Shown piece by piece: positions 48,107-54,599 of a DNA stretch of 64,000 bases. The DNA is from Antrihabitans stalactiti. Lineage in GTDB: Bacteria > Actinomycetota > Actinomycetes > Mycobacteriales > Mycobacteriaceae. The stretch lies in contig NZ_VCQU01000001.1 in NCBI RefSeq assembly GCF_012932915.1, forward strand, positions 682,001 through 746,000, in the 5' to 3' direction. Under the pieces are notes generated by a model. That model was not told the DNA's origin and ran no database searches. It saw only the letters and a program-made list of their open reading frames with translations. The position numbers were made by a program, and so were the translations under genes. Positions within the stretch are counted from its first letter, which is position 1; every line of letters begins with the position of its first letter.

Positions 48107-48976
48107 CTACCGGCGCTGTGCAATCACGCGAGCTTCGACCTTACGGATGAGTGCATGAACACCCTTGTCGCCCGCCATCTTTTGATCGATGAGGACGTTC
48201 GCAGCGCCACGCAGCAACGAGTACGGCTGCCACGACGCGGGAGCGATAGTGCGAGCTGCTCGCTCGGCAATTCCGTCCGCGATCGACTTCGCTGCCTCGG
48301 CTGCACTGATCCGCTGGCTCAAGGGCCACGGCAGCAACGCGGCGACTTCGCCGACAAGGTCGTCCTCGTCGATGGTGTCGTGGGTCATGGCGGTGTCCAC
48401 GATGCCGAAGTACGCGACACCGGCACTCGCGCCGACGGCAGCAAGCTCGATCCGCAGCGCGCGGCCGAACTGCTCGACCGCCGCCTTGCTGATCATGTAC
48501 GGGGATCCACCCGCACCTGGCGCGAACGCGGCCGCCGACGACACCACAACCACATGACCGTTGTGCTCGATCACCTGCTCCAGAGCCGGACGGACCGTGT
48601 TGAACACACCCGTCAGATTGATGTCGATGACGCGGTCGAAGGCGTCCTCGTCGATGGTCCGCAGGGTTGCAGGGGGCGGTGCGATTCCTGCGTTGGCAAT
48701 GACAACGTCGAGCCTCCCGAAGCGCTCCACGATCTGCGCGACAGCGGCTTTCATGCCTGCCCGGTCGCGCACGTCGGCGGTCAGCGGCAAGGCACGCTCC
48801 CCGAACGCGTCCGCGGCGGCAACGACAGAATCGGTGTCGACATCGACCATCGCGATCGACGCGCCACGGTCGTGCAGCAAGGTCGCCAGCGCAAGCCCGA
48901 TGCCTTGGCCCGCTCCGGTGATCAGGACGACCTTGTCGCGAACGTCGTAGGACGGACTGCTGTTGAACGGAAACAT
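48107..48976 (-). CDS. Short-chain dehydrogenase/reductase
   Basis: This 289-residue classical SDR has the NAD(P) motif TGAGQGIG near residue 20, NAGIAPPP, the catalytic Ser in VVVSSAAAFAPGAGGSPYMISKA and the YxxxK pair in that segment. It is the last gene of the five-gene operon; its ATG shares one base with the stop of the flavin monooxygenase gene (TGATG). It may oxidise the alcohol product or intermediate of the pathway. An SDR beside a MymA-type monooxygenase is also found in the M. tuberculosis mymA operon. Confidence 0.9.
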   Translation of the reverse strand: MFPFNSSPSYDVRDKVVLITGAGQGIGLALATLLHDRGASIAMVDVDTDSVVAAADAFGERALPLTADVRDRAGMKAAVAQIVERFGRLDVVIANAGIAPPPATLRTIDEDAFDRVIDINLTGVFNTVRPALEQVIEHNGHVVVVSSAAAFAPGAGGSPYMISKAAVEQFGRALRIELAAVGASAGVAYFGIVDTAMTHDTIDEDDLVGEVAALLPWPLSQRISAAEAAKSIADGIAERAARTIAPASWQPYSLLRGAANVLIDQKMAGDKGVHALIRKVEARVIAQRR

Positions 48977-50433
48977 CAGACTGCACTCATCTCGTAGGAA
49001 TCGCGATCGAATTTGGCGGTGCGCCTTGCATATTCGAAGCTCCAGCCCGGGTACAGACCGGCATTGCGTCCGTCCGCCGTCCGGTAGTAGGTGGTTGCGC
49101 ACCCGCCCGTCAACCACACGGTGTTCTCGCTGCGATCGTTGACTTCGTCCAGGAATTCTTCCTGAACTTCTCCGCGCACCTCGACGCGGGTGAGTCCTTC
49201 GTCGCGCATCGTTGCCAACGCGTCGACGATGTATGCGATCTGGCATTCGATCATGTAGATCGCGGACTGATTCCCCACGGCGCCGAACGGCCCAAGCGTG
49301 CTGAAAAAGTTCGGAAACCCAGCCATCGCTGTGCCGAGGTAGGACTGCGGCCGCTTGGCAACGAGCTCGCCGATGCTGAGCCCGTCGGTGCCGTGAATCC
49401 GTTCTGCCACCGCAGGCGGAACGACAAACCCGGTGCCGTAGATGATGGTGTCGACCGGATGCTCGACACCGCCTCGCGTGACGATCGAGTGCTCACGGAT
49501 CTCGGCAATCGCGTCGTCGATCACCTCGACGTTCTCCTTTGCCAACGCGGGCAGGTACGAGTCGGAGAAGATCGCGCGCTTGCAGCCGATCATGTAATCC
49601 GGGGTCAGCCGCTTACGCAACGCCGAATCACGGACTTGACGGCGGAGCTGCAGCTTTCCGATGACCTCGAAGGGGTGGCGGAATCGTTTGTCTACAAAGC
49701 CGACCAACCCGAAACCTTCGATGCCGGTGTAGTAGCCGCCGCGCATGGCCTTGCCGATCAGCGGGAGCCGGCGCAGCAACCCACGTTCGATACGCGAGGT
49801 CGTACGGTCCAGCCGCGGAATGATCCACGGCGCGGAGCGCTGAAAGACCAGCAGCCGATCGACGAGCGGCTGGATCTCGGGCACGAATTGCACTGCGGAC
49901 GCGCCGGTTCCGAGTACCGCGACCACCTCCCCCGACAGGTCGTGCTCGTGATTCCAGTGCAGCGAATGGAATGCGGTGCCTGCGAACTTTTCGATGCCCG
50001 GTAAGTCGGGGTAGCGGGCCTCGCCATAGACACCTGCGGCTGAAATCAGGATTCTCGGGTGGAGCTCACCGTTGTTCGTCGTGACGGTCCAGCGCCGCGA
50101 CCGCTCGTCCCATTTCGCCTCCAGGACTTCGGTATCGAAGCGCATGTGCCCGACGACGCCGTTCTTTGCCGCGACCGTGCGCAGGTACTCCAGTATCTCC
50201 GGCTGCTTGCTGTAGGTGCGTGACCAGTCCGGATTCGGCTCGAACGAGTAGCTGTAGAGGTGCGACGGCACATCGCACGCGCATCCGGGATAGGTGTTGT
50301 CGCGCCACGTGCCGCCGAGCTCACTTGCTCGCTCCAGGATGACGAAGTTCTCGAATCCGGCTTCGCGCAGTTTGATACCCAGACCGATGCCGCCGAAGCC
50401 GGCGCCGATGATGGCAACGTCGATGTCGCTCAT
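48976..50433 (-). CDS. Flavin-containing (Baeyer-Villiger-type, MymA/EthA-like) monooxygenase
   Basis: This 485-residue FAD and NADPH-dependent monooxygenase has FAD motif GAGFGGIG (residues 10-17), NADPH motif VLGTGASAVQ, and the fingerprint FAGTAFHSLHW, in which the usual FxGxxxHTxxW reads FHSxxW. The YPGCACDVPSHLYSYSFEP segment is typical of the alkyl-ketone branch. It probably inserts oxygen into a ketone or oxidises a heteroatom. It sits in a tight operon, four bases after the aldehyde dehydrogenase. Confidence 0.9.
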   Translation of the reverse strand: MSDIDVAIIGAGFGGIGLGIKLREAGFENFVILERASELGGTWRDNTYPGCACDVPSHLYSYSFEPNPDWSRTYSKQPEILEYLRTVAAKNGVVGHMRFDTEVLEAKWDERSRRWTVTTNNGELHPRILISAAGVYGEARYPDLPGIEKFAGTAFHSLHWNHEHDLSGEVVAVLGTGASAVQFVPEIQPLVDRLLVFQRSAPWIIPRLDRTTSRIERGLLRRLPLIGKAMRGGYYTGIEGFGLVGFVDKRFRHPFEVIGKLQLRRQVRDSALRKRLTPDYMIGCKRAIFSDSYLPALAKENVEVIDDAIAEIREHSIVTRGGVEHPVDTIIYGTGFVVPPAVAERIHGTDGLSIGELVAKRPQSYLGTAMAGFPNFFSTLGPFGAVGNQSAIYMIECQIAYIVDALATMRDEGLTRVEVRGEVQEEFLDEVNDRSENTVWLTGGCATTYYRTADGRNAGLYPGWSFEYARRTAKFDRDSYEMSAV

Positions 50434-50437
50434 CTTG

Positions 50438-51931
50438 TCAGTTCCTTCCGTGCAGCAGCTTCACAAGCGCTCCTGCTATTGCGTCAGTCCGCTCGGTGCG
50501 GGCAAACGTTGTCAGTGCCAGCGGCGACGGAAACCGTTGCCGCGAGATCGCTTTGGCGTAGGTGAACTCCTTGAGACCTTCCGGTCCGTGCACGCGACCG
50601 AATCCGGACTGGCCGACGCCGCCCAACGGGAGCGACGGGATCGTCGCGTATGCGACGAACGCGTTGATCGCCACGCCACCGACCCGGAGCCGACGAGCGA
50701 TCTCGACTCCGCGTGCGCGCGAAAAGACTGTCGCACCAAGCCCATAGCGGCTTGCGTTGACGCGGTCGATCGCCTCATCCATGTCGGCCACCTTCGCCAC
50801 GGTCAACGTCGGACCGAACGTCTCCTCGGTGACGGCCAGCGAATCCTCCGGCACGTCCACCAGAATTGTGGGTTGAACGAATTGCCGGTCGATCGTGTCG
50901 AGCCCGCCGATCAGAGCACGCCCACCTCGTTCGAGTGCATCCGTGACGTGACGGAGGATGACATCGACTTGCGATGGCATCGTGATCGGGCCGATCTTCG
51001 AACCGTTGTCGGTGCCGGCGCGAATCGCCTTCGCCCGCTTGACGACCTCGGTCACGAATGCGTCGTAGACGGCTTCGTGAACGTACACGCGCTCGACCGC
51101 GAGACAGGTCTGGCCCGCATTCGACAGTCCGCCCCAGACCGCAGCGTCGGCTGCTGCTTCGATGTCGGCGTCCGCATCGACGATCAGCGCATCCTTGCCA
51201 CCGCACTCCATCAGAACCGGCGTCAGGCTCTCCGAACACGCGGCCATGACCTTCTTGCCTGTCGCGGTCGAGCCGGTGAACCCGATCTTGTCGACGCCCG
51301 AACGGCACAGCGCTGCACCGGTTTCCGCACCGCCGGTCACCACCTGCAGCACCGGATGTTCGGGGACCGCTCGCTGGAACGCCGCGACCAGCCACGCGCC
51401 GACCCCAGGAGTGAATTCGCTCGGCTTGAAGACGACGGCGTTACCCGCGGCGAGCGCAAACGACAACGAGCTCAGCGGAGTGAACACCGGATAGTTCCAC
51501 GGGCCGATGACGCCGACGACGCCCAACGGTGGAAACTCCACGCTCGCAGCCTGATTGATGGTCAGCAGACTCGACGGCACCGACCGGGGACCGAGCACCT
51601 TCGCCGCGTTCTTGCCACCCCACGCCAGGTGCTCGAGCGCCATCGCAAGCTCGAGCTTGGCATCCGAGACCGGTTTGCCCATCTCCGAATTGATCAGCTC
51701 CACCAGTTCGTCTGTGCCGCGGACTATTTCGCTGCGCCACCTCGCCAGACCCTTCGCTCGCTGTGCGAACGACAGCCCCGCCCACCACACCGCAGCTGAG
51801 CGTGCGCGTTCGACGGTCGCGGCGACGTCATCGGCTGTGTGGGACGGAAACGTCCCCACCACAGCACCGGTAGCGGGGCTGAGCACGTCGAAGGTCAGAG
51901 AGTCGGCGGTGAAAGCAATCGTTTCCGTCAC
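50438..51931 (-). CDS. Aldehyde dehydrogenase
   Basis: This 497-residue NAD(P)-dependent dehydrogenase has the general base Glu in LMECGGKDALI and nucleophile Cys in NAGQTCLAVERVYV. It also has the FTGSTATGKKV coenzyme motif and a late EETFGPTLTV. It would oxidise an aldehyde released by the oxygenase steps to the acid. It is nine bases downstream of the reductase gene and four upstream of the monooxygenase gene. Confidence 0.93.
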   Translation of the reverse strand: MTETIAFTADSLTFDVLSPATGAVVGTFPSHTADDVAATVERARSAAVWWAGLSFAQRAKGLARWRSEIVRGTDELVELINSEMGKPVSDAKLELAMALEHLAWGGKNAAKVLGPRSVPSSLLTINQAASVEFPPLGVVGVIGPWNYPVFTPLSSLSFALAAGNAVVFKPSEFTPGVGAWLVAAFQRAVPEHPVLQVVTGGAETGAALCRSGVDKIGFTGSTATGKKVMAACSESLTPVLMECGGKDALIVDADADIEAAADAAVWGGLSNAGQTCLAVERVYVHEAVYDAFVTEVVKRAKAIRAGTDNGSKIGPITMPSQVDVILRHVTDALERGGRALIGGLDTIDRQFVQPTILVDVPEDSLAVTEETFGPTLTVAKVADMDEAIDRVNASRYGLGATVFSRARGVEIARRLRVGGVAINAFVAYATIPSLPLGGVGQSGFGRVHGPEGLKEFTYAKAISRQRFPSPLALTTFARTERTDAIAGALVKLLHGRN

Positions 51932-51940
51932 GAGGTTCCT

Positions 51941-53038
51941 TTACAGATCGAGGACGAGGGGCCCGCCGTCGGAGCGGGAAACGCAGATGAGCATCGAGTC
52001 GTCGCGTTCGGACTCGAGCAGTTTGTTGTCACGGTGGTCGACTCCCCCGGTGAGCACGCCGACCTTGCATGTGCCGCAGTAGCCCTGCTGGCAGGAGTAG
52101 GTCACCGCGGGGACTTGGCGACGGATTGCGGCAAGCGCCGACTCGTCCGCGCCCACAGCGACGGTGATTCCGGTGCGCAGCAGTTGCACGTCGAAGGGTG
52201 TACCCCCGACAACGGGTGGAGCCGAAAACCGTTCGGTGTGCATCGATCCCGTGGAATCCAGGGTCGACATCAGCCGGCGCGCGGCGTTCAGCACGGGCGG
52301 CGGTCCGCAGACGTAGGTGGCACCGCCCGGCTGCGCCCGGCTGAGCAGATCGCCGATGTCGGGCAACCCGACCTCGTCGTCGGGCCGAATCTCGACAACA
52401 CCATTGGCGCAACGCACCAGTTCGGTGAGAAACGGCATGGACTCACGTGTTCGCCCGAGATACACCAGCTGCCATGGCACTTCACGTGCGTTGGCAGCCT
52501 TCACCATCGGTAGGATCGGCGTGATGCCGATTCCGCCTGCGATGAAGAGATAGGAGTCCGCTTCGACCATGCGGAAGGCGTTGCGCGGTCCGCGGACATG
52601 CAGCGTGTCACCGGCTTTCAGCGCCTGGTGAATCTCCCGAGAACCTCCACCGCCGTCGCGGATCAGCCGGACTGCGATACGGAAATGCTTGCGGTCGTGC
52701 GGATTCCCACACAGCGAGTACTGACGCTGCCGACCTGACGGCAGAAATATGTCGATGTGCGAGCCCGGACTCCATACCGGTAGATCGGCGCCATCGGGGG
52801 CTGCCAGTGCCAGGCTCACCACATCGTCGGCTTCGACCTTCACTCGTTCTACGACGAGATCCATGTCGAAGTCGTTATGCCGCAGCTTGTTCGAGCGGGC
52901 GAGAAACGGCGAGAGCCTGCTGTCGGCAACAAGACGCCGGTAGCCGCCTACCGCTGCGGCGACAAGCTTGAGGCCCGGTCCAACGGTGCCTTCGCGCGGC
53001 GGTGGGAGTTTCGTTGCGCCGCGGATCAATCCGCTCAC
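51941..53038 (-). CDS. Phthalate dioxygenase reductase-type flavin/2Fe-2S oxidoreductase
   Basis: This 365-residue electron-transfer protein has an N-terminal extension of about 45 residues, a flavin-binding barrel (RQYSLCG, the FMN-type RxYS signature), an NAD domain (FIAGGIGITPILPM, YVCGPPPVL) and a C-terminal plant-type 2Fe-2S ferredoxin domain (CQQGYCGTCKVG with a later CVSRSDG). PDR-type reductases feed electrons from NADH to an oxygenase. Its GTG start overlaps the stop of the upstream ferritin-like gene in a GTGA junction, which argues that the two proteins work together. Confidence 0.9.
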   Translation of the reverse strand: MSGLIRGATKLPPPREGTVGPGLKLVAAAVGGYRRLVADSRLSPFLARSNKLRHNDFDMDLVVERVKVEADDVVSLALAAPDGADLPVWSPGSHIDIFLPSGRQRQYSLCGNPHDRKHFRIAVRLIRDGGGGSREIHQALKAGDTLHVRGPRNAFRMVEADSYLFIAGGIGITPILPMVKAANAREVPWQLVYLGRTRESMPFLTELVRCANGVVEIRPDDEVGLPDIGDLLSRAQPGGATYVCGPPPVLNAARRLMSTLDSTGSMHTERFSAPPVVGGTPFDVQLLRTGITVAVGADESALAAIRRQVPAVTYSCQQGYCGTCKVGVLTGGVDHRDNKLLESERDDSMLICVSRSDGGPLVLDL

Positions 53039-53925
53039 TGCGCGTCGGCATTCGCCGCGGGCGAGGTCGCAAGATACCGCAATGCCTGATCCAGACTTCC
53101 CATCGACGAAGGATGAAACCCTGGCCGCAGGTACACCGGAATCTCGGTGAGGAAGTGCAGACCCGTAGGGATGAGCCCTCGAGCGGCCGCGCTGACGAAC
53201 TGCACCGGCCAGGGCTTTCCCTTGGGTGACGGATCGTGGCGCATCATGTACGTCACGCTGTAGGCGGTCAGCGCGGCGAGTGTGCCGCTGGCGAGAATTG
53301 CGGTCCGGGCACGGCGGGCAAAGCTGCCGTCGACGTGCTGATAGACGTCGTAGACGACGCTGCGGTGCTCGACTTCTTCGGCACCGTGCCAGCGGAGCAG
53401 GTCGAGCATCATCGGATGCATGCCGGCCTCGTCGAGTTCGTCGGCATCGAGGAGCCACTGGCCGACGATCGCGGTGTAATGCTCCAAGGCGGCGAACAAG
53501 CCCAGCCGCTCTTTCAGCCACAACTTCTTCGCGCGACCGCCGAGGCCGTGATCGACGAGGATTCTGTCGATCAAGTAGTTCACGCGATCGATCATCGGAT
53601 CGACGTCGAGGCCCTGCTCGATGAGGTGGCGACGGACTGCCTCGTGAGACGACGCGTGCATGGCTTCTTGACCGATGAAGCCGACAGCCTCCTCGCGCAG
53701 ACGCTCGTCCTCGATGTAAGGCAGCGCATCCGCGAGCGCGCCGGCCATCGCACGCTCGCCTTCGGGGAGCACGAGGTGCATGAAGTTCCAGATCTGGGTG
53801 ACCAGCGGTTCGCCGGGCACGTACTGGAGCGGAACGCCCGACCAATCGAATACGACGTTGCGCGCATTGATGGCATGCGCTTCGTCAAACCTAGGCTGCG
53901 CCGTTGCAGTCCGTTTCGTTGTCAT
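53035..53925 (-). CDS. PF10118 ('metal-dependent hydrolase') ferritin-like protein, candidate di-iron oxygenase
   Basis: This 296-residue protein belongs to the family annotated as predicted metal-dependent hydrolases (PF10118/COG3687). Counting from ATG 53925, it has candidate metal ligands Glu57, Glu87, His90, Glu148, Glu184 and His187. Two of them form ExxH motifs (QEAMH at 86-90 and EVEH at 184-187) on separate helices, the pattern of ferritin-like di-iron carboxylate enzymes. The first gene of the operon, it is co-translated with a dedicated reductase (GTGA overlap), so an oxygenase role is more plausible to me than hydrolysis. No direct proof exists here. A longer start at 53940 is possible. 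The tail has two hydrophobic stretches. Confidence 0.8.
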   Translation of the reverse strand: MTTKRTATAQPRFDEAHAINARNVVFDWSGVPLQYVPGEPLVTQIWNFMHLVLPEGERAMAGALADALPYIEDERLREEAVGFIGQEAMHASSHEAVRRHLIEQGLDVDPMIDRVNYLIDRILVDHGLGGRAKKLWLKERLGLFAALEHYTAIVGQWLLDADELDEAGMHPMMLDLLRWHGAEEVEHRSVVYDVYQHVDGSFARRARTAILASGTLAALTAYSVTYMMRHDPSPKGKPWPVQFVSAAARGLIPTGLHFLTEIPVYLRPGFHPSSMGSLDQALRYLATSPAANADAQ

Positions 53926-53940
53926 GTTCCGACCGTACAC

Positions 53941-53959
53941 TGTTACATATTATATGACA
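53941..53959. promoter_or_regulatory. AT-rich imperfect palindrome between the operon and its TetR gene
   Basis: TGTTACATAT, one base, then ATATGACA form an imperfect inverted repeat about 16 bases before the ferritin-like gene start and 50 before the divergent TetR gene. It is the only clear symmetry and the most AT-rich spot in this intergenic region, so it is a candidate TetR operator. Confidence 0.45.
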
Positions 53960-54008
53960 ATGTTGCATCTACATCGGTCGGGATGACGTTTCTTGATACC
54001 GTCGCCAC

Positions 54009-54599
54009 GTGCCTGACGCTCCGGATCCAGCGACCGAACGCATCCTCGACGCCGCACTACGACAATTCGAGGAAGTCGGAATGCGCCGGACCACGATCGA
54101 GGACATCGCCAAGCAAGCCGGCGTCGAGCGCGTCACGGTCTATCGCCGGGTGGGTTCGAAAGACGACGTTGTCTCGGCAGTCATCAATAGGGAGGCGCAG
54201 CGCGCTATCGCGAGTCTCGGTCTGGCGGCGGCAATCAGCACGTCGTTCGAAGACCGCCTTGCTGCGGGCTTCACCACAATCGTGCGCTTTCTGTGGAATC
54301 ACACGTTGGCGAACCGACTCATCGCGCTCGAACCCGAGAGCGCGTTACCGCGCTTGACCACCAATGGCTCACCCGTTCTGGCAGCATCGGTCGCGGCAAC
54401 TGTCGCGATGTTCGATCAGGCTGTGCGAGACGGACTACTGGACGCCGCCGACGATTTCGCCGAACGTGCCGAGGTGATCGTGCGGCTGATCCATTCGTTC
54501 ATGATGACGCGGCGCGTACACGTCGACCTCACCACCGACGACCAACTGGACGCTTTCGCGCGCCGCTACATCGTCCCGATCGCCGCCCACCCCTCGTGA
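54009..54599 (+). CDS. TetR-family regulator, divergent to the oxidative operon
   Basis: This 196-residue TetR protein has the helix-turn-helix ALRQFEEVGMRRTTIEDIAKQAGVERVTVYRRVGSKDDVV and a helical ligand domain. It is divergent from the five-gene operon at 48107-53925 and probably controls it. Start is GTG 54009. Its stop codon is inside the arm of a long hairpin. Confidence 0.9.
   Translation: MPDAPDPATERILDAALRQFEEVGMRRTTIEDIAKQAGVERVTVYRRVGSKDDVVSAVINREAQRAIASLGLAAAISTSFEDRLAAGFTTIVRFLWNHTLANRLIALEPESALPRLTTNGSPVLAASVAATVAMFDQAVRDGLLDAADDFAERAEVIVRLIHSFMMTRRVHVDLTTDDQLDAFARRYIVPIAAHPS

Follow-up and report, generated by a model that had tools for sequence, protein, structure and literature searches.

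A PF10118 protein labelled metal-dependent hydrolase as a probable di-iron oxygenase component with its own phthalate dioxygenase reductase-type partner in Antrihabitans stalactiti

INTRODUCTION

A window of 64,000 nucleotides from Antrihabitans stalactiti (contig NZ_VCQU01000001.1, positions 682,001 to 746,000) carries five minus-strand genes, reading from 53925 to 48107, for a PF10118 protein, a phthalate dioxygenase reductase (PDR), an aldehyde dehydrogenase (ALDH), a flavin monooxygenase (FMO)-like protein and a short-chain dehydrogenase (SDR). We consider it very likely that the PF10118 protein and the PDR form a two-component enzyme in which the former is the oxygenase and acts on a lipophilic substrate. 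This reading is built on gene order, invariant residues, a predicted fold and reductase linkage.

The PF10118 label, metal-dependent hydrolase, steers annotators toward hydrolysis. In a passage of one correlation study PF10118 is used as a protease candidate (PMC8960859), and a passage of another paper places a 'metal-dependent hydrolase' downstream of prmABCD, the family being unstated there (PMC4428276). Searches of the open-access literature with COG3687, with the short name of PF10118, and with AurF together with phthalate dioxygenase reductase returned nothing.

RESULTS

The window protein matches PF10118 (Metal_hydrol) with 235.5 bits against a curated Pfam cut-off of 33.2, and its nearest relatives from named organisms are Nocardia proteins with 65% identity. 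A preliminary description of this DNA had named E57, E87xxH90, E148 and E184xxH187 as ligands of a di-iron site, and all of these residues stand at the given numbers in the protein of 296 amino acids. With H180, which lies four residues ahead of the last ExxH and is invariant among the aligned relatives, the proposed ligands are E57, E87, H90, E148, H180, E184 and H187. H94 and E186 are invariant in this alignment as well.

The predicted model, on whose outcome the preliminary description had let its di-iron claim depend, is an all-helical bundle. Helices 40-70, 74-103, 130-160 and 171-186 bear the ligands, with H187 one residue beyond the last helix. E, ExxH, E and ExxH thus appear to be placed on four helices in the pattern of ferritin-like di-iron carboxylate proteins, and the ligands are spaced much as in the R2 protein and in an AurF protein of the same genome. 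Among the rows listed (50 in each of two structure searches), all are ferritin-like di-metal enzymes by title, including R2, R2lox, CmlI, VlmB, acyl-ACP desaturases and aldehyde-deformylating oxidase; to the extent that a model can tell, this agrees with the claim. Moreover, the model aligns over nearly its whole length to R2 and CmlI, which implies that the seven proposed ligands may converge on one site. Matches to solved structures by sequence were taken as chance. They were YEATS, lysozyme and a designed protein with a profile of 61 relatives (E 0.23-0.48), an R2 chain with a narrower profile of 79 sequences (E 0.3), and one chain with the window protein itself (E 0.75).

Since the closest folds listed include R2 and R2lox, the protein might be a radical or oxidase scaffold of the R2 or R2lox type and not an oxygenase. 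The radical tyrosine of R2 stands at E+7 of the first ExxH and is Y110 in the R2 of this genome, but the invariant His94 takes this position in the PF10118 protein. In addition, no R1-type partner is found among the operon genes, and the pairing with an oxygenase-type reductase is conserved. We therefore hold such a scaffold to be very improbable.

The linkage to the reductase is strong. In 20 genomes, a PDR gene lies directly downstream on the same strand for 33 of 73 PF10118 matches, against an expectation of 0.026 based on gene numbers and genome sizes (2 of 75 rows were dropped because they score below the Pfam cut-off, and some of the rows are fragments of a single gene). Conversely, 33 of the 65 PDR matches of these genomes (E up to 1e-30) sit directly downstream of PF10118, and the top 32 PDRs by score all adjoin it, 31 downstream and one upstream; the upstream case, in genome G198, was taken from coordinates and not from the scripted count. 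Among the 80 nearest relatives taken from named genomes (hereafter scan loci), 79 have a same-strand PDR directly downstream and the single exception lies at a contig end. This figure describes near relatives, because at least 588 relatives were matched and the 80 best were kept.

Other electron acceptors were looked for near the pair. In reading frames of at least 250 amino acids passing a codon-bias filter, a search within 5 kb of the 156 PDR-linked rows gave a Rieske motif at 2 rows and a P450 motif at 0. By eye, one of the two Rieske cases resembles a cytochrome bc1-type protein. Hence, service of the PDR to a nearby Rieske or P450 enzyme was rejected as a rule. That the PDR generally serves the FMO gene was rejected too: at 68 of the 80 scan loci, most of them from Streptomyces and some of them short contigs, the pair stands with none of the tested operon enzymes within 5.5 kb. 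With PDR linkage high and Rieske and P450 motifs nearly lacking in its vicinity, the regular candidate for accepting electrons from the PDR is the PF10118 protein. The three further PDR homologues of this genome that exceed 200 bits occur with a VanA-type Rieske oxygenase, with a fused flavin monooxygenase and with a P450-domain frame about 1 kb off. At L284:3985-7104, a large reading frame joins an FAD_binding_3 monooxygenase to PDR-type domains.

The near absence of Rieske and P450 motifs also argues against PF10118 being a hydrolase as labelled, with the PDR serving another enzyme. The family label and the protease-candidate use in the passage cited above speak for hydrolysis, but none of the 25 families listed besides PF10118 gives a metallohydrolase match above single-member chance, and the structure matches listed contain no hydrolase fold. 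We regard this explanation as extremely unlikely.

The family falls into two clans. In clan A, 156 of 167 rows are PDR-linked, after one correction by hand (L063, where the PDR gene was seen). Clan B is one side of a branch with support 98 in a tree that left out 2 of 198 rows as under 200 amino acids. The PDR label requires four changes on this tree, with 195 of 196 rows counted (L010 left out). Model alignment A1 covers 78 scan loci; the other two, L043 and L071, whose reading frames are long, were dropped. The genome of A. stalactiti itself has two A genes, each paired with a PDR, and six B genes that lack a directly adjacent PDR; three of these six have weak PDR homologues (26-28% identity) at a distance of about 4-6 kb. 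The association with reductases that the preliminary description had expected is thus far above chance in clan A and does not extend to clan B, where no PDR is directly downstream.

Some loci have other partners. An A-clan PF10118 gene lacking a PDR is followed by a Pyr_redox_2/Reductase_C gene of ferredoxin-reductase type (L172:4450-5661), perhaps an exchanged electron donor. A nitronate-monooxygenase-family gene stands beside PF10118 in place of a PDR at L287:5992-8063 (annotated) and L231:4780-6843 (by eye), perhaps as another flavoprotein partner. Two PF10118 genes on Acinetobacter baumannii plasmids have no adjoining PDR; one scores with B (L248:6983-7852) and the other at the low end of A (L247:6947-7897).

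PF10118 was found in 98 of 121 sampled genomes of the host's family, with up to 17 matches per genome, partly gene pieces. The 3.6-Mb genome G232 has 17 matches, four of them consecutive on one strand and some of them pieces of one gene.

In the window, the PF10118 gene and its surroundings are as follows.

53035-53925, minus strand: PF10118 protein labelled metal-dependent hydrolase, 296 amino acids, proposed di-iron oxygenase component (Pfam match, invariance, fold model)
51941-53038, minus strand: PDR/VanB-type reductase, 365 amino acids, GTG start (Pfam, solved relatives, motifs)
50438-51931, minus strand: ALDH, GTG start (PF00171, 431.9 bits)
48976-50433, minus strand: FMO-like flavoprotein with a Baeyer-Villiger-type fingerprint at residue 150 (Pfam, solved relatives, motif)
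48107-48976, minus strand: SDR, ATG overlapping the FMO stop (Pfam, start region)
54009-54599, plus strand: divergent TetR-type regulator (Pfam; operon membership by context)
53926-54008: intergenic stretch, AT-rich, presumed promoter/operator (coordinates)

Co-translation of PF10118 and PDR through a GTGA overlap had been claimed before, and the overlap is seen in the sequence, where the PDR start GTG at 53038 overlaps the PF10118 stop TGA at 53037-53035. The genes after the PDR follow at 9 bases (ALDH), at 4 bases (FMO) and with an overlap (SDR). Gene set and spacing bear out the tight five-gene operon of the preliminary description with two corrections, namely the PDR limits and length given above and the SDR start, which is most likely the ATG at 48976. 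The TetR gene probably belongs to the same unit, judging by context. An opposite-strand TetR gene of similar kind lies near 12 of 81 A-clan loci of the host's family; no inverted repeat of at least 8 bases, as a TetR operator, was found in 53915-54015.

The PDR carries the RxYS and CxxxxCxxC motifs together with flavin, NAD and C-terminal 2Fe-2S domains, as PDR/VanB reductases do, and its top matches among solved structures are residues 475-785 of the P450 chain 6kbh and phthalate dioxygenase reductase 2pia. Baeyer-Villiger monooxygenases of type I have the fingerprint FxGxxxHxxxW(P/D). The FMO gene product matches it only if N is allowed as the last letter, and the majority of its 37 listed solved relatives are named Baeyer-Villiger-type enzymes.

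Neighbours of related pairs were counted within 5.5 kb by tblastn domain matches under group labels assigned by us. On the same strand, an alpha/beta-hydrolase domain occurs at 43 and an FMO-like gene at 23 of the 81 A-clan loci of the host's family, and in the three such representatives that were scanned, Pfam shows the hydrolase domain joined to an SDR. A TetR-like gene (by eye) follows the pair in 64 of 76 scan loci. A Rhodococcus plasmid has a coenzyme A (CoA) ligase and an ALDH upstream of PF10118, PDR, a flavoprotein and an SDR, near fatty-acid oxidation genes. In a relative of the same genus, whose PF10118 protein is 81% identical, an AMP-binding ligase gene separates PDR and ALDH. Directly after the PDR of a Rhodococcus fascians plasmid lies a gene of the limonene-1,2-epoxide hydrolase family. 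At 13-16 A-clan loci (e.g. L194, L157 and L179) the pair lies in a replication-origin-like region, near dnaN-, recF- and gyrB-like genes (by eye).

The limonene-epoxide-hydrolase-type gene and the frequent alpha/beta-hydrolase domains, either fused to an SDR or on their own, would suit a special case of the proposed oxygenase in which the product is an epoxide that a dedicated hydrolase opens. The window operon has no gene of any of these hydrolase types, however, and the alpha/beta hydrolase could equally be an esterase cleaving a Baeyer-Villiger product, which leaves the epoxide rather unlikely.

Two further loci of the A. stalactiti genome concern AurF. A frame of 791 codons fuses AurF to flavin, NAD and 2Fe-2S domains (L279:1923-4298), and at L280:625-7835 a flavin/2Fe-2S reductase and an alpha/beta-hydrolase-SDR fusion are preceded on the same strand by two AurF genes. 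Because of these loci, AurF-type and PF10118 proteins appear in similar gene settings.

DISCUSSION

From these data we infer the metal, oxygenase activity, electron flow, step order and substrate class of the following scheme. The ferritin-like helical PF10118 protein would hold a di-iron (or Fe/Mn) site through its seven ligands. The PDR would take two electrons from NAD(P)H and, via flavin and 2Fe-2S, reduce the metal site, which may then activate O2 and insert oxygen into a lipophilic substrate. The SDR could convert the alcohol into a ketone and the Baeyer-Villiger-type flavoprotein the ketone into an ester or lactone; after hydrolysis by an enzyme encoded elsewhere, the ALDH would turn the aldehyde into an acid, and in the relative with an operon ligase CoA ligation of the acid might follow. 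This sequence of alcohol, ketone, ester and acid is the most likely downstream route. An oxidation leading on to an acid had been proposed in the preliminary description, and as a putative route it fits the neighbours, including the ligase of the 81% identical relative.

A di-iron protein with another reaction, that is, an N-oxygenase like AurF, CmlI or VlmB, a desaturase, or an aldehyde- or acid-cleaving oxidase, would share the site and the electron supply with the proposed oxygenase. CmlI, VlmB, acyl-ACP desaturases and aldehyde-deformylating oxidase are indeed among the listed fold matches, and H180 as a third His matches the AurF pattern. However, an enzyme for amino compounds was not found among the operon genes, and the set of ALDH, Baeyer-Villiger enzyme and SDR suits oxygenated carbon skeletons better. 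We see this as a possible but clearly less probable explanation.

Several results weigh against the oxygenase assignment. Fold statistics are moderate, helical bundles inherently giving middling Z: the best Foldseek E-value is 0.063 with none at or below 0.001, and query TM is 0.27-0.50 in the rows listed. The profile of 61 members run against solved structures gave no ferritin-like chain. The hhalign comparisons of PF10118 with AurF were not significant (P 0.037, 0.18 and 0.02; probability at most 2.3%), although in two of the three alignments helix 4 is in register, with HGAEEVEH over HVAEEARH, a hint only. AurF (PF11583) is matched by 8 of the 61 relatives at E up to 1, with a best value of 1.3e-4, but unrelated families also match one or two of them, with a best of 9.2e-4. 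In a survey of 100 loci, hand-chosen from the best-scoring listed rows and not random, 7 of 80 A-clan loci have no same-strand PDR and one more has it one gene further. Clan B shares the site, yet none of its 29 rows has a PDR directly downstream; hence, the PDR is not obligatory for the fold, and the site alone does not fix the donor. Moreover, the tree program warned of long branches that meet. Lastly, the esterase needed by the proposed route is not in the operon.

In a wider view, whose chances we judge to be evenly balanced, the PDR-linked clan would be a separate class of di-iron monooxygenases, undescribed in the open-access literature, in which a single AurF/R2-like protein with a His for the R2 tyrosine and its own PDR acts on unactivated C-H or C=C bonds in lipids, terpenoids or xenobiotics in actinobacteria. 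Because the same site recurs in the other clan with different donors, the whole 'metal-dependent hydrolase' family would then be a family of oxygenases. Many genes probably carry a wrong label that hides untested oxidation chemistry. If PF10118 is a di-iron oxygenase with its own reductase, a large set of actinobacterial oxidation genes could be tested by a simple two-protein assay, and a new family of non-heme biocatalysts would be opened.

Compared with known systems, the PF10118 protein shares with AurF/CmlI (PF11583) the third His ahead of the last ExxH; of the 30 AurF proteins fetched, 29 retain the His column and 29 the ExxH column. The window protein gives no PF11583 match at E up to 10 and differs from AurF/CmlI in its invariant H94 and E186 and in its PDR/VanB-type partner. 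Unlike R2/R2lox (PF00268, again with no match at E up to 10), it has H180 on the fourth helix in addition to His94 at the radical-tyrosine position. Bacterial multicomponent monooxygenases encode a multi-subunit hydroxylase together with a regulatory protein. In contrast to soluble methane monooxygenase, the five operon proteins and two neighbours include no regulatory or further hydroxylase subunit (Pfam), and the reductase has the PDR order with a C-terminal 2Fe-2S domain. The electron donor is of the same family as in PDR/VanB-driven oxygenases, such as Rieske VanA and the 6kbh-type P450, and a VanA_C-type Rieske oxygenase adjoins a PDR homologue in the same genome; the difference from these systems is that the proposed oxygenase component is ferritin-like, neither Rieske nor P450.
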